From Aureispira sp. CCB-QB1 (GTDB lineage: Bacteria; Bacteroidota; Bacteroidia; Chitinophagales; Saprospiraceae), in contig NZ_JHBV01000041.1 in the NCBI RefSeq assembly GCF_000724545.1, positions 186,001 to 250,000 on the forward strand: a stretch of DNA of 64,000 nt, read 5' to 3'. The notes beneath the pieces are model-generated. The model was not told the DNA's origin. It searched no databases and saw only the letters and a list, made by a program, of their open reading frames with translations. This document shows positions 10,397 to 48,553 of the stretch, one piece after another. Each line of letters opens with the position of its first letter. The stretch's first letter is position 1. The position numbers were made by a program, and so were the translations under genes.

Positions 10397-10511
10397 AACT
10401 TCTTATTTATTAACACTTCGTGGATTCATAAAAACATAAAAAGCCACGAAATACTGTGTGTTACTGTATTATTTTAGCGAGTTGTTTTTTGTGCAGCATT
10501 CTTATTAATAG

Positions 10512-10753
10512 TAGTTCGTTGATTAGCTCCCTGCGGTCGTGAGATCGCTATCGCTTAGTTGTTTACTTTTTTACCAAAAAGACAAAAAATAACATTTATA
10601 TTAGTTTAGCTTCGCTGCTACTTCGTGGTACTTCGTGAGTGCTGCGCAGTTGATAATCAAAATTTTAACACAAAACAAAACAAGGGAACAACTTGCTAAT
10701 TATCAAGCTAATAAAGTTTAGCTGCGCTGCTACTGCGTGGTTTCAACGAACTA
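10512..10753. repeat. Modular inverted-repeat element, copy A
   Basis: The ends TAGTTCGTTG (10512-10521) and CAACGAACTA (10744-10753) are inverted repeats. The AT-rich core (ACTTTTTTACC, AAAAAGACAAAAAA, TATTAGTTT, ATAATCAA, TATCAA.CTAATAAAGTTT) is shared with copies B and C. Three GC-richer modules interrupt it: one at about 10525-10560 (CTCCCTGCGGTCGTGAG, ATCGCTATCGCTTAG), one at 10608-10651 (CTTCGCTGCTACTTCGTGG and CTTCGTGAGTGCTGCGC), and one at 10720-10743 (GCTGCGCTGCTACTGCGTGG). It has no coding capacity and resembles a non-autonomous mobile element or REP/BIME-like unit. Confidence 0.85.
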
Positions 10754-10760
10754 TTGTATT

Positions 10761-10798
10761 AAAAAAAATAGGAGTTATCCCCTAAAGAACAACTCCTA
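10761..10798 (-). terminator. Terminator of the cytoplasmic FKBP gene
   Basis: An 8-bp stem (10769-10776 with 10791-10798) followed on the minus strand by a T8 tract (A8 at 10761-10768), 22 nt after the stop codon at 10821. Confidence 0.85.
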
Positions 10799-23136: not shown

Positions 23137-23163
23137 TTCCTGTCTTCTTTCTAACATTACTCC

Positions 23164-23408
23164 GTTGAAACCACGCAGTAGCAGCGCAGCAAACTAAAAG
23201 CAAAGCGCTCACGCAGCAAATCGTATTAATTTACCACACGAGGGCTTTTTTCGTTGATTATCAGCAAGATGCTTTTTTATATTTTTACTTCCTGAGCCTA
23301 CGGGTTCGTAGAAAAACTAAAAAACTAAGCTTGCCGAGTAGGCTTGTGCCAGTAGCACAAAAGCCCAAGCTCATGACCAGAGGGAACTAGCCTTGCGCTC
23401 TCATGAGC
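23164..23408. repeat. Modular repeat, inverted degenerate copy F
   Basis: The first 27 bases (23164-23190) are the exact reverse complement of 10721-10747 in copy A (GTTGAAACCACGCAG onwards). The next stretch (GCGCTCACGCAG) matches the inverted end of copy C. At 23370-23390 there is the inverted CTCATGACCAGAGGGAACTAG-type module. An 8-bp palindrome (23369-23376 with 23401-23408) closes it. The core between is degraded. Confidence 0.75.
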
Positions 23409-23458
23409 GTAGCGAATAATAAACAACAGAGTATTATTGTAAAAATACTTCATAATAG

Positions 23459-23598
23459 TAGTTCGTTGATTTTTTACTTTTTTACCAAAAAGACAAAAAA
23501 GCACATTTATATTAGTTTGATAATCAAAGCTTTAACACAAAACACGGCAAACTTGCAACTTATTGATTATCAAACTAATAAAGTTTTTCAACGAACTA
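23459..23598. repeat. Modular repeat, minimal copy B
   Basis: A 140-bp copy without GC-rich modules. Terminal inverted repeats are TAGTTCGTTGA (23459-23469) and TCAACGAACTA (23588-23598). Inside is an 18-bp perfect inverted repeat (23510-23527 with 23563-23580) with a 35-nt loop. It appears to be the uninterrupted form of the element in copies A and C. Confidence 0.88.
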
Positions 23599-23605
23599 TT
23601 GTCAT

Positions 23606-32421: not shown

Positions 32422-35058
32422 CTATTTTTTTGTTGTCGTTTTCTTCTTGGTTCCCGTTGTTTTTTTCTTCGTTGTTTTTTTCTTTGCCGCAGGTTTCTTT
32501 TTGGCAGCCTTCTTCTTTTTCAACACCCCTCCTTGTTCTTCTACCAATTGAATAACATACTCCAAAGTAACTTCTTTCGCTTCTTCAGGAGTCATTTTCT
32601 CTCCCTTCTTATTCAACAACTTATAACTCTTACGATCTTTATCAATTTTGATAAAAGGTCCCCAACGACCATTTTGAACAGACAAACCTTCTTCGTCCCA
32701 TTTGTGAATATAACGATTGGCTTCTTTCTCAATTTTAGCCTTTACTAGAACAATCGCTTCTTCTTCTGTAATCGTTTCTAACTGAAAGCCTGAGCCTTTG
32801 GTAATCGAACAATACAACCCCTCCCATTTCACAAAAGGACCAAATCGACCTTCTCCCTTTGTTATTGGTTTATCTTGATAATACCCAATTGGAGCATCTG
32901 CCTTTTGTTTTTCTTTAATCAATTCGATTGCTCGTTCCATCCCAACTTGATGTACATCTTCTGTTCTAGGGATAGAAATAAAAGCACCATCATATTTCAC
33001 AAAAGGTCCATAACGCCCCTCTCCTATAACAACTTCTTTGCCTTCATATTCTCCCAAGTTTTTAGGAAACTGGAACAATTCCATCGCTTCTTCAAAGGTG
33101 ATCGTTTCTATAGATTGCGTTTCTTTTAAATTGGCATATTGAGGTTTTTCTTCGCCCAATTCTTCTGTCAAACCAATTTGAGCAATAGGACCAAATCGAC
33201 CAATTCTCACCAATACCGACAAGCCAGTTTTGGGATCTTTGCCCAAAATCCGTTCCCCTGTAACACGATCTGCATTTTCCAACGTATCTTCTACTTGATC
33301 GTGAAATGGTTTGTAAATATCATCCAACATCTTTACCCAATCCTCTTTTCCTTCTGCGACAATATCTAGTTGATCTTCGATTGCTGCTGTAAAGCTATAC
33401 TTCATGATGTTCGCAAAATGTTCTGATAGGAAATCGGTTACTTGCATTCCCAAATCACTTGCAAACAATTTATTTTTTTCGTATCCCACATGTTCCGTCT
33501 GAGTAGCCGTAGCAATCGTTGTTTTTTTGCCGTCCAACGTCAACACTTTGTATTCTCTATCTTTTCCTAATCTAGTCTGTTTAACCACATAACCTCTATT
33601 AGGGTCCATAATTCGGCTAATCGTTGGCGCATAAGTAGACGGACGACCAATCCCCAATTCCTCTAGTTTCTTAACCAAACTAGCTTCTGTATAATGTGGT
33701 TTGGGGCGAGTAAAACGCTCTATGGCATCCATTTTTTCTAACATTAATGGTTGCCCTACGGTCATTGGTGGCAAAATTTTATCGTCCGTATTATCGTCAT
33801 CTTCTTGCTCGTCTTCTTCTTTAGACTCTAAATAGACCTTCAAGAAACCATCAAATTTTAACACTTGCCCCGTAGCGACCAATTTTAGGTCATTTATCGT
33901 CGAAATATCAATATCTATTGTTGTCTTTTGCAACTGAGCTTTTGCCATCTGAGACGCAATGGTACGTTTCCAGATTAAATCGTACAAACGATTCTCATCA
34001 CTGCCCATGTTTACGGCACTATTCTCAGCATAAGTCGGACGTATTGCCTCATGCGCTTCTTGAGCAGAAGCTTTGTTATTGGTATATTGTTTTGTATTTA
34101 GATAATTGTCACCGTATAATTTCTTAATTGTATCTGCCAAAGCCGCCAAGGCTGTTTCGCTCAACGTAGTAGAATCCGTACGCATATAGGTAATGTGTCC
34201 CGCTTCGTACAGGCGTTGTGCAACAGACATTGTTCTGGAAACAGAAAAACCTAATTTTCGACTAGCTTCTTGTTGTAAGGTAGATGTCGTAAATGGAGCA
34301 GCAGGTTTTCTATACGCAGGCTTAACAGCAATATTGCCTACTTTATAATTAGCAGGCGCACATTTTTCTAAGAATGCTTGTGCTTCTTTTTCAGAATCAA
34401 AATTCTTGTTTAGGTTCGCTTTGAAATGAACTGTTTTATTTTTTGAATCCTGAACTTCAAATTGTGCTACTACCTTAAAAAAGGGCTTGGGGGTAAAATT
34501 ATTAATTTCTCGCTCTCGCTCTACTACCAATTTCACAGCAACAGACTGCACACGTCCTGCCGATAATTTCCCTCTAACCTTGCGCCACAACAACCCCGAC
34601 AGCTCAAACCCGACCAAACGATCCAATACACGTCTTGCTTGTTGTGCATTGACTAAATTTATATCTACTCTACCAGGGTTTTGAATGGCATTTTGCAAAG
34701 CAGGTTTTGTAATTTCTCTAAACGAAATCCGCTTGGTAGAGTCCAAGTCCAATTTTAACACCTTTGCTAGATGCCAAGAAATAGCCTCTCCTTCGCGGTC
34801 TTCATCCGTTGCCAACCACACTTCATCCACTTTCTTGACCCAATCTTTGAGCTCTTTAACTACTTTTTGTTTGCCTGTAGAAATTGCATAATTAGGTTTG
34901 TATGAATTGTCAACCTCTATGGCTTTTTTATCTTTCGAGTCTTTGATTAAGTCACGGATATGCCCATAACTAGATTTAACTGTAAAATCTTTTCCTAAAA
35001 TTTTTTCAATTGTCTTCGCTTTAGCGGGAGACTCCACTATCAATAAATGTTTTGCCAT
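32422..35058 (-). CDS. topA: DNA topoisomerase I
   Basis: An 878-residue type IA topoisomerase that relaxes negative supercoils. TOPRIM domain starts at residue 1 (KHLLIVESPAKAKTI) with TDEDREGE at 84-91. The catalytic Tyr291 sits in ITYMRTDST. The C-terminal third has several glycine-rich Topo C-terminal repeats (e.g. GEGRYGPFVKYDG, GEGRFGPFVKWEG, NGRWGPFIKID) instead of Cys4 zinc fingers. The last 35 residues are a Lys/Ala/Thr-rich tail (KKKPAAKKKTTKKK), likely for DNA contact. All is as expected for Bacteroidota TopA. Confidence 0.97.
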   Translation of the reverse strand: MAKHLLIVESPAKAKTIEKILGKDFTVKSSYGHIRDLIKDSKDKKAIEVDNSYKPNYAISTGKQKVVKELKDWVKKVDEVWLATDEDREGEAISWHLAKVLKLDLDSTKRISFREITKPALQNAIQNPGRVDINLVNAQQARRVLDRLVGFELSGLLWRKVRGKLSAGRVQSVAVKLVVEREREINNFTPKPFFKVVAQFEVQDSKNKTVHFKANLNKNFDSEKEAQAFLEKCAPANYKVGNIAVKPAYRKPAAPFTTSTLQQEASRKLGFSVSRTMSVAQRLYEAGHITYMRTDSTTLSETALAALADTIKKLYGDNYLNTKQYTNNKASAQEAHEAIRPTYAENSAVNMGSDENRLYDLIWKRTIASQMAKAQLQKTTIDIDISTINDLKLVATGQVLKFDGFLKVYLESKEEDEQEDDDNTDDKILPPMTVGQPLMLEKMDAIERFTRPKPHYTEASLVKKLEELGIGRPSTYAPTISRIMDPNRGYVVKQTRLGKDREYKVLTLDGKKTTIATATQTEHVGYEKNKLFASDLGMQVTDFLSEHFANIMKYSFTAAIEDQLDIVAEGKEDWVKMLDDIYKPFHDQVEDTLENADRVTGERILGKDPKTGLSVLVRIGRFGPIAQIGLTEELGEEKPQYANLKETQSIETITFEEAMELFQFPKNLGEYEGKEVVIGEGRYGPFVKYDGAFISIPRTEDVHQVGMERAIELIKEKQKADAPIGYYQDKPITKGEGRFGPFVKWEGLYCSITKGSGFQLETITEEEAIVLVKAKIEKEANRYIHKWDEEGLSVQNGRWGPFIKIDKDRKSYKLLNKKGEKMTPEEAKEVTLEYVIQLVEEQGGVLKKKKAAKKKPAAKKKTTKKKTTGTKKKTTTKK

Positions 35059-35844
35059 GTTGCAAAATCCGTTTTTCCCTAGTTATATAAATATAGTCGT
35101 TTGTTATCCTTGCAGTTTCGAGCGTTCTAAACGGCTATTGTATTAGCTTATAATAGTTCGTTGATTTTTTACTTTTCTACCCAAAAAGACAAAAAAACAC
35201 ACCTACAACAACTTGACGATCAAAGCTTTAACACGAAACGCAATAAATCTACAATTTATTGATCATCAAACTAATAAAGTTTACTTCGTGAGCGCTGCGC
35301 TTTTAGTTAGCTTCGCTGCTACTGCGTGGTTTCAACGAACTATTGAGCTTGAGTATTGCTACTTTTTCAAAATTTGGTGACAGTCTGCAAGTTAATAAGC
35401 CAAGTCCGCTCCTATTGCATGGTTTTAGTAGATTATCAAAAATAGTAATTTATTGATTGTCATTAATCCCTAAAATAGCTCAAACCATAATTCTCACCAA
35501 GATGTTTATTCGTTGGATTTAAGTAATCGTTCAAAAAAATTATATTTATTAAATCCTTTTTATGCGCATTCAAACGCCTCTTTTAACTTCGAAAGATCCT
35601 ATTAGAATGCAAAAGTACAATTTTTTTTTAGACCTCAAAATATAGTTTGAACGCCACAGTATACAAAAAAGGTCGTAAAATAAACTATCAATACACTAAA
35701 ATTGTTGCTTTCGGGGTTGTTTCTTTTTATAAAAAACACACTAAAATTTACATAAAATTCATCTTAGAGTATAATAATTATCGTATTCTGTCTTATTTTA
35801 AGGCTGTCAATTCGACATTATCATCATATCATAAAAAATCATCA
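35059..35844. other. Intergenic region with repeat copy C
   Basis: Holds the topA upstream region, repeat copy C (35152-35344) and about 500 nt of AT-rich DNA before the thioesterase-fold gene. A second, very degraded repeat-like stretch may lie near 35395-35460. The open frame that reaches back to 35647 begins at TTG and its first 66 residues do not resemble the family. Confidence 0.6.
35152..35344. repeat. Modular repeat, copy C
   Basis: A 193-bp copy with perfect 13-bp terminal inverted repeats, AATAGTTCGTTGA (35152-35164) and TCAACGAACTATT (35332-35344). The core matches copy B (ACTTTTCTACCCAAAAAGAC, TTGATCATCAAACTAATAAA). Two GC-richer modules (CTTCGTGAGCGCTGCGC and GCTTCGCTGCTACTGCGTGG) are inserted between the core and the right terminus. 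Confidence 0.88.
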
Positions 35845-38064: not shown

Positions 38065-41313
<3,249 letters not shown>

Positions 41314-48210: not shown

Positions 48211-48339
48211 ATTTTATTTTTCTTAATTAAGCAATCTCTCAAAATTGGCATCCAGCCTCTTATTTTTCTAAACGATTGTTTAAGATTCTTAAAATAGATA
48301 GTATCTTAACTCTAATAAAAATCTATTTGATATAATATA

Positions 48340-48520
48340 GTACTTAGCTGCGGTGCTACTTCGTGGTAGTTCCCTACGGTCGTGAGATTGCTATCGCTTA
48401 GTTTTTTTGTAAAAAACTAAAAAAAGCATCTTTGCATCAGTTTAATTATCAATGCTTTAAGAAATCAAACAACAAAACATACTCTATTGATAATCATACT
48501 AATACAATTTACCCACGAAG
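48340..48520. repeat. Modular repeat, degenerate copy D
   Basis: Contains the GC-rich modules TTAGCTGCGGTGCTACTTCG and CCCTACGGTCGTGAGATTGC in the same orientation as copy A, followed by a degraded core with half-palindromes AGTTTAATTATCAA and TTGATAATCATACTAA. Left terminal repeat not found. Confidence 0.7.
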
Positions 48521-48553
48521 TAATAATCAAAATCATCCATTAATTTCCAATCA

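Follow-up and report, generated by a model that had tools for sequence, protein, structure and literature searches.

The window analysed here is a stretch of 64,000 nucleotides (G000:C41:186001-250000) in the draft genome of Aureispira sp. CCB-QB1 (G000; 7,365,792 bases in 184 contigs). The first-pass annotation had claimed six repeats in it, copies A to F, and all six are present, with borders that move slightly (Table 1). Copies A, C, and D are one family of miniature inverted-repeat transposable elements (MITEs), copies B and (by eye) E belong to a sister family, and copy F is a decayed relative, by eye a third, decayed MITE type. MITEs are small "passenger" transposons and are well known in bacteria. 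The family of copies A, C, and D has TAGTAGTTCGTTG/CAATAGTTCGTTG ends, an inner palindrome, and a 146-bp base form, and the modules that had been seen in some copies and not in others are present or absent to the exact base across the aligned elements. As single-stranded DNA, copy C folds into a single long hairpin (z -7.5). Copy D has AGCTT on each side with a one-base offset; copy B has a decayed right end, and no target duplication was seen around it.

We propose, with a probability of about 75%, that these repeats are MITEs colonised by hairpin cassettes, and thus two nested layers of mobile DNA. The first layer, evident from the anatomy of the elements, is a MITE superfamily of 146 bp when unfilled. 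Its ends are of the CAATASTYCGTTGA type, its internal palindrome is long, and its target-site duplications (TSDs) mostly have 6 bp; a DDE (IS4-superfamily-like) transposase, of a type that the genome holds in one intact copy, most likely moved it. The second layer consists of ultra-short cassettes set exactly into the MITEs, an insertion state evident from filled and empty sites; one of them, module X, can also stand head to tail with other units.

Table 1. The six repeats of the window and their modules (positions in the window; a tilde marks approximate borders).
Feature	Position	Strand	Remark
Copy A, family-1 MITE, 248 bp	10509..10756	+	TSD TATTAA; locus L001
TSD TATTAA, left of copy A	10503..10508	.	
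TSD TATTAA, right of copy A	10757..10762	.	
Insertion in copy A	10525..10560	+	exact, base-element site 14
Module X (22 bp), TTC loops, copy A	10608..10629	+	exact insertion, site 61, joined to Y
Module Y (22 bp), copy A	10630..10651	+	junction recurs in other palindrome arm (site 116): L014, L018, L026, L027
Module X (22 bp), TGC loops, copy A	10720..10741	+	exact insertion, site 130
Copy B, family-2 MITE, ACTCCGTTGA-type left end, X and Z-like modules	~23155..23436	+	right border by eye
Module X in copy B	23170..23191	-	
Copy C, module-free base element, 146 bp	23456..23601	+	TSD TCATAA
Copy D, family-1 MITE, Y-like and X modules	35151..35345	+	by eye against the consensus
Y-like module in copy D	35283..35308	+	by eye
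Module X in copy D	35309..35330	+	by eye
Copy E, looks like a decayed end of the ACTCCGTTGA family	~41213..41279	+	by eye
Copy F, decayed related MITE, TAGTACTT left end then X, CACGAAGTAATA right end	~48338..48525	+	borders by eye
X-type module in copy F	48346..48367	+	
Segment directly after the X-type module in copy F	48368..48403	+	

The base element of copy C was found at 30 loci. Twenty-nine of them were aligned (L035 was left out, and two of the 29 have a module at one end); their left end is TAGTAGTTCGTTGATTTTTTAC, and their right end is CAATAGTTCGTTGAAAAAC in the inward direction. Fifty elements were excised by their ends out of 60 loci, and 46 of these have an exact TSD of 5-7 bp (6 bp in 31, 7 bp in nine, 5 bp in six); four have none. 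A genome-wide search for the terminal repeats, suggested in the first-pass annotation, found the exact end WRTAGTTCGTTGA 292 times (144 + 148), against two times (0 + 2) for the reversed pattern. With copy A (242 bp) as the query there were 79 matches, counted in the 40 candidates scored, and with the 147-bp base element there were 40, likewise counted. The elements thus have what defines MITEs, namely terminal inverted repeats, a near-constant TSD size, a non-coding length, and many copies. The sister family, with ACTCCGTTGA ends, is laid out in the same way, and its inner palindrome resembles that of the first. The base element was found in four of 40 genomes (its own and relatives), all within the genus, and matches longer than 100 bp outside its own genome are 70-79% identical. 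Mini-elements of about 24 bp, made of little more than two ACTCCGTTGA-type ends and a run of T or A between them, were also observed (G000 C16 at ~306844 on the plus strand, and at 324316 and 129683 on the minus strand).

A family search of the genome with DDE_Tnp_1 (PF01609) found three loci (L159, L151, and L155), and one of them, L159, is a matching full-length insertion sequence (IS) with a transposase on another contig. It is a 1365-bp element with two CAATACTTCGTTGA ends, a 21-bp perfect terminal inverted repeat, the TSD TTATGC, and one open reading frame (ORF) of 415 aa with a YREK-like spacing. Its end differs from the MITE right end at one base of 14. The transposase is above the cut-off of Pfam DDE_Tnp_1, and its best NCBIfam model is IS701_3 (E 3.5e-26), with a score of 92 below the cut-off of 170; it is below the cut-off of every NCBIfam model listed. 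By curated models, L159 lies near IS701/IS4. The likeness lies in the IS701_3 match of the transposase, whereas the TSD is 6 bp in L159 (6-7 bp in its relatives) and 4 bp in IS701.

The transposase has matches in seven of 60 genomes and is single-copy in its own. In the related genome G003, a relic of 597 bp has CAATACTTCGTTGA at one end and CAATAGTTCGTTAA at the other, a broken reading frame between them, and no clear duplication. Distant relatives of the transposase are present on plasmids (42 records, of which four regions were examined): those of Persicobacter (two copies) and Leptolyngbya have CAATASTYCG ends and the TSDs TATTAAA, ATTGGG, and GTTAAA, and a Segatella plasmid has an CAATAGTTCGTTAA right end with an imperfect left partner and no duplication. 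Since L159 and its relatives in Persicobacter and Leptolyngbya have such ends and 6-7 bp TSDs, the ends and the duplication size of the MITEs fit this IS group, and L159 is the likely parent that would have mobilised them. No convincing end pair was found at the transposase relatives of G040, and no convincing MITE-like end pair near L151 (G000 C16:176722) and L155 (C15:16974), the two other DDE_Tnp_1 genes of the window's genome. A search for an autonomous IS with fuzzy ends gave no candidates in ~1.5 Mb of stretches (a set outside which the contig of L159 lies), and the L159-type transposase was not found in viral contigs. Target duplications, the agreement of the ends, the number of copies, and an IS whose ends are closely similar and whose duplication is equal in size all support the earlier view of the repeats as non-autonomous mobile elements. 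Like the MITEs of DDE insertion sequences, these elements are short, have terminal inverted repeats, a TSD, and an internal palindrome, and have a related IS in the genome; they differ in bearing exact cassette insertions at fixed sites.

The modules in the MITEs are exact insertions of 22, 34, or 36 bp at fixed sites, and X (22 bp) is the commonest. Exact insertions were seen in all 22 elements displayed out of 23 of other length (L042, 180 bp, was left out), and as loci L001-L030 were chosen for their likeness to copy A, these are figures of site occupancy and not of genome frequency. The pattern GCTGCTACTNCGTGG occurs 274 times in G000, 92 in G001, 34 in G003, and 79 in G006, and has no match in the remaining 56 of 60 genomes; its reversed control gave one match among the 60, in G011. 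With up to three mismatches, the 21-base form AGCTNCGCTGCTACTNCGTGG has 474, 217, 104, and 165 matches in the same four genomes (reversed, 2, 2, 0, and 1). X is preceded by TT and followed by T, and several repeat families of the genus carry it. Among the 32 X in 828 kb of the window's genome, TT precedes 30 and T follows all 32, and none of the 32 lies inside a predicted ORF of at least 150 aa. In G003, X falls into four flank clusters among 20 places and stands head to tail in L135 and L143. At L030, both terminal repeats of a MITE are broken by X at the identical base, and the target duplication is still intact.

An X-pattern scan of genome_contigs (84,980 species) found at least 75 stretches. 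Among the matches listed, uncultured Aureispira metagenome-assembled genomes (MAGs) are the top genus, with 35 of 75 X-bearing stretches; the other taxa are Lewinella, Neolewinella, Crocinitomicaceae, other Flavobacteriales, Bacteroidales, Lentimicrobium, Chitinophaga-named MAGs, Faecalibacter, Parapedobacter, and one Verrucomicrobia MAG, whose match (L209, GC-rich and probably coding) was excluded when flanks and clusters were counted. Outside Aureispira, again among the matches listed, TT comes before X at 36 of 38 places and T after it at 37, flanks that the pattern does not demand, and with the degenerate pattern 40 places fall into 20 flank clusters. Of 25 genomes chosen for holding X, 23 match a pattern degenerate in stems and loops, and none of the 25 matches its reversed control. 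In Bacteroidota, X is widespread but patchy. By eye, it also lies inside repeats of the types GTCATTTCGACCGAAGGGAGA (L205, L220, L228, and L243) and CTGAAACAAGTTCAGAATGAC (L206 and L217), which are common in Bacteroidota. The end-plus-module pattern had no match in genome_contigs, a scan from which the records of the window's own genome may have been absent, and the sole X-pattern match in viral contigs (L320) may be coding and was not used. In the literature covered (one library; titles, starts of abstracts, and some passages), no description of the modules in Bacteroidota was found.

Filled and empty sites were found in two other genomes. A repeat of Neolewinella antarctica with AAGAGCATGTTGGGACTTT ends has X at three sites in varying combinations: all three are filled in L270, L273, and L283, the first two in L285, the third alone in L284, and the middle one alone in L276, L279, and L280, and in the other-strand reading in L272, L275, L277, and L281. 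The empty sites equal the flanks of the filled ones, with differences of one or two bases in L275, L277, and L284. In L271, a diverged copy, the first site is filled; L274, L278, and L282 are other repeats. At a separate site in G066, a 22-bp variant of X, with GCT-TTC-AGC as its first hairpin in place of AGC-TTC-GCT, is present in six copies and the site is empty in two. The filled and empty sites place X 3' of TT (TT^[X]T), with no target duplication beyond the ambiguous T. Two longer alternative cassettes, the palindrome CCCCGATAGCTATCGGGG and a hairpin-like stretch of ~40 bp, were also seen to replace short stretches at fixed sites of the Neolewinella repeat in L270, L273, L283, and L284.

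These sites bear on the alternative that the modules are immobile, being old parts of MITE subfamilies that spread only with the MITEs and were shuffled among copies by gene conversion. Such hitch-hiking would agree with the restriction of MITE and X to the same four genomes among relatives, but X is also found in distant Bacteroidota within other repeats, in either orientation in a single host repeat, head to tail, inside MITE ends, and present or absent as an exact 22-bp unit in other genomes, and we consider immobility unlikely. The repeats are modular in a wider sense than had been claimed, as the modules are precise insertions and are found in other repeats of other Bacteroidota as well.

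The layout of X is A-n-C-TNC-G-n'-T-GCT-m-C-TNC-G-m'-GGT, that is, two consecutive mini-hairpins. Covariation was studied in 31 distinct sequences from 21 of the 23 matching genomes (G072 and G083 were left out, and G080 was partly in). The pair n/n' is Watson-Crick in 29 of them (GC 15, CG 8, AT 6) and m/m' in 27 (AT 15, GC 8, CG 3, TA 1), with T-G in two more. Shuffles, which ignore relatedness, have means of 11.2 for n/n' and 11.3 for m/m', and the observed values were reached in 0 of 20,000; crossed pairing between the two hairpins is found in 0 and 2 of 31. All Watson-Crick pair types except the CG of m/m' recur in more than one genome, and all four letters occur as the middle loop base of both hairpins. 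Among 100 places listed in G003, the stem of hairpin 1 changes from G-C to C-G and A-T and that of hairpin 2 from A-T to C-G and T-A, with some unpaired exceptions. X has an exact insertion state, a fixed target, a constrained shape, and many flank contexts; the constraint is on the shape of the hairpins, with covarying stems and a free middle loop base.

The complementary strand of X bears C(GNA)G, and the complement of the commonest X contains GCGAAGC. In the passages available from PMC4686876, DNA mini-hairpins with GNA loops and at least two G-C pairs are extraordinarily stable. The d(GCGNAGC) mini-hairpins of Hirao and Yoshizawa described there share with the X complement the GNA loop, the free middle base, and GCGAAGC exactly; in those passages they are parts for chemistry and aptamers, whereas X is a repeated genomic unit (PMC4686876). 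Because its complementary strand bears such an extraordinarily stable mini-hairpin, X may act as folded DNA, either single-stranded or extruded. In intergenic DNA (128,342 bases), xC(GNA)Gy has a Watson-Crick outer pair in 274 of 430 cases against 143 expected, with related copies counted, and C(GNA)G tops the 64 loop patterns tested (40 distinct) with a ratio of 1.91 (next, 1.40; coding, 1.09). A triloop test on the whole window gave no clear signal for GNA loops; the signal is in intergenic DNA. A chance origin was rejected by reversed, coding, and shuffled controls.

The modules might instead be regulatory hairpins, protein-binding or at the RNA level, under host selection. Stem covariation, the T-G wobbles on one strand, which suit RNA, and the lack of X in the ORFs surveyed are in keeping with this, but X is inside parasitic repeats and in both orientations, and its pattern is absent from four of eight genus genomes. 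A known RNA family was also considered, and the window has no Rfam match at the gathering threshold. We regard host regulation as quite unlikely. The earlier suggestion of a structural RNA thus finds no direct support, and a hairpin role of the modules, as DNA or RNA, is backed by the covariation.

A third alternative is that X is a unit like the repetitive extragenic palindromes (REPs), moved by a REP-associated tyrosine transposase (RAYT) or another IS200-type Y1 (HUH) transposase. X is indeed a 22-bp hairpin unit 3' of TT without duplication, with GTAG beside the hairpin in its complement. PF01797 (Y1) has a match in 20 of the 25 X-bearing genomes of other taxa, 18 of them over the cut-off, a figure that stands without a phylum base rate for comparison. 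At 13 strong Y1 loci, three of them with gene ends set by hand, C(GNA)G hairpins are denser near the genes (27 in 15,346 bp) than farther out (8 in 20,772 bp; background, 155 in 277,437 bp), and seven of the 13 loci have any GNA hairpin nearby. But PF01797 has no match in G000, G001, and G003, despite their 474, 217, and 104 X-like places, nor in five of the 25 other genomes (G006 has one match), and a scan of 24 Y1 loci, with up to 1.5 kb on each side, found no X-like unit. As PF01797 is missing from three genomes of the genus and no X lies at the Y1 loci, we do not file X under REP/RAYT, and a Y1 origin is rather unlikely. X shares with IS200/IS605-type elements the short target without TSD and the hairpin, and their Y1 TnpA has no counterpart in G000, G001, and G003. 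In passages of PMC3733652, REP and REPIN elements, associated with RAYTs, are hairpin repeats of 20-40 bp with alternative complementary stem bases, a likeness to X, and have one stem of 5-13 bp tagged GTAG or CGTC, whereas X has two mini-hairpins and the window's genome no Y1 match; GTAG families are reported there from phyla other than Bacteroidetes, and CGTC families also from Bacteroidetes. At the Y1 (RAYT-like) loci L262, L258, L252, L261, L254, and L257 of other Bacteroidota, palindromic repeats were observed near the genes; their loops are C(GNA)G, and CAACTCCGTAGGAGTTG and TTGCCCGTAGGGCA are examples.

In the two-layer reading, X would have been placed by a process that recognises hairpins and works 3' of TT, like HUH "peel-and-paste" or structure-led template switching, and its copies may then have multiplied by riding on MITEs. 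We tentatively suggest, at a little under even odds, that X is a 22-nt mobile element, among the smallest known. In this reading, a DNA cassette of two mini-hairpins would have spread through Bacteroidota, and a new, non-Y1 hairpin-reading enzyme would insert it 3' of TT, recognising its shape (C(GNA)G loops, with the varying stem positions free to hold any Watson-Crick pair) rather than its exact letters. Several points weigh against the two-layer reading. No inserting enzyme was identified for X. The finding of MITE (4/40) and X (4/60) in the same four genomes is expected also from hitch-hiking, and the filled and empty sites are compatible with precise excision. X is rare in an even sample of the phylum, where the degenerate pattern is in 3 of 395 genomes, its own included, and the other two have one copy each. 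On the chromosome of G003, X is on the plus strand in 58 of 99 cases with no evident strand trend, a count in which the origin was not located and MITE movement may mask a lagging-strand bias. The covariation shuffles ignore relatedness, and related copies are part of the intergenic hairpin count. Generic DNA energies do not favour the mini-hairpins: ViennaRNA gives z from -0.2 to +1.2 for all six sequences folded. At positions 12-20, X has a fixed T-G that would be a wobble if one strand folds and a mismatch if the GNA strand does, so that either strand may be the active one, as DNA or as RNA. Lastly, there is one copy of the intact IS, and at least one base separates its ends from those of the MITEs.

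Elhai et al. reportedly described in 2008 the small dispersed repeats (SDRs) of Nostoc and relatives, which are said to be 21-27 nt long, to have structures backed by compensatory changes, to lie in mini-transposons, and to be nested. X most resembles these SDRs, in size, compensatory stems, nesting, and residence in mini-transposons; with ~21-27 nt, compensatory stems, precise insertion, and a place inside mini-transposons, it answers to their definition. A module SDR5 precisely inserted inside the octamer HIP1 is mentioned in a passage of PMC4390886. The two differ in phylum and in target (HIP1 for SDR5 and TT for X), as compared by description.

X is a second case in another phylum, and its filled and empty sites are clean, its target is fixed, its stems covary strongly, and its loop matches that of an extra-stable DNA mini-hairpin; the questions of the folding strand and of the agent of cutting and joining thereby become testable. 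Very small mobile repeats are not known to have an enzyme or a settled mechanism since the cyanobacterial description. X also offers a marker of hairpin-dependent DNA exchange in Bacteroidota. As to the neighbourhood of the repeats in the window, copy D lies upstream of the gene for a type IA DNA topoisomerase (32422-35058, minus strand; Pfam Topoisom_bac), at a distance of ~90 bp.
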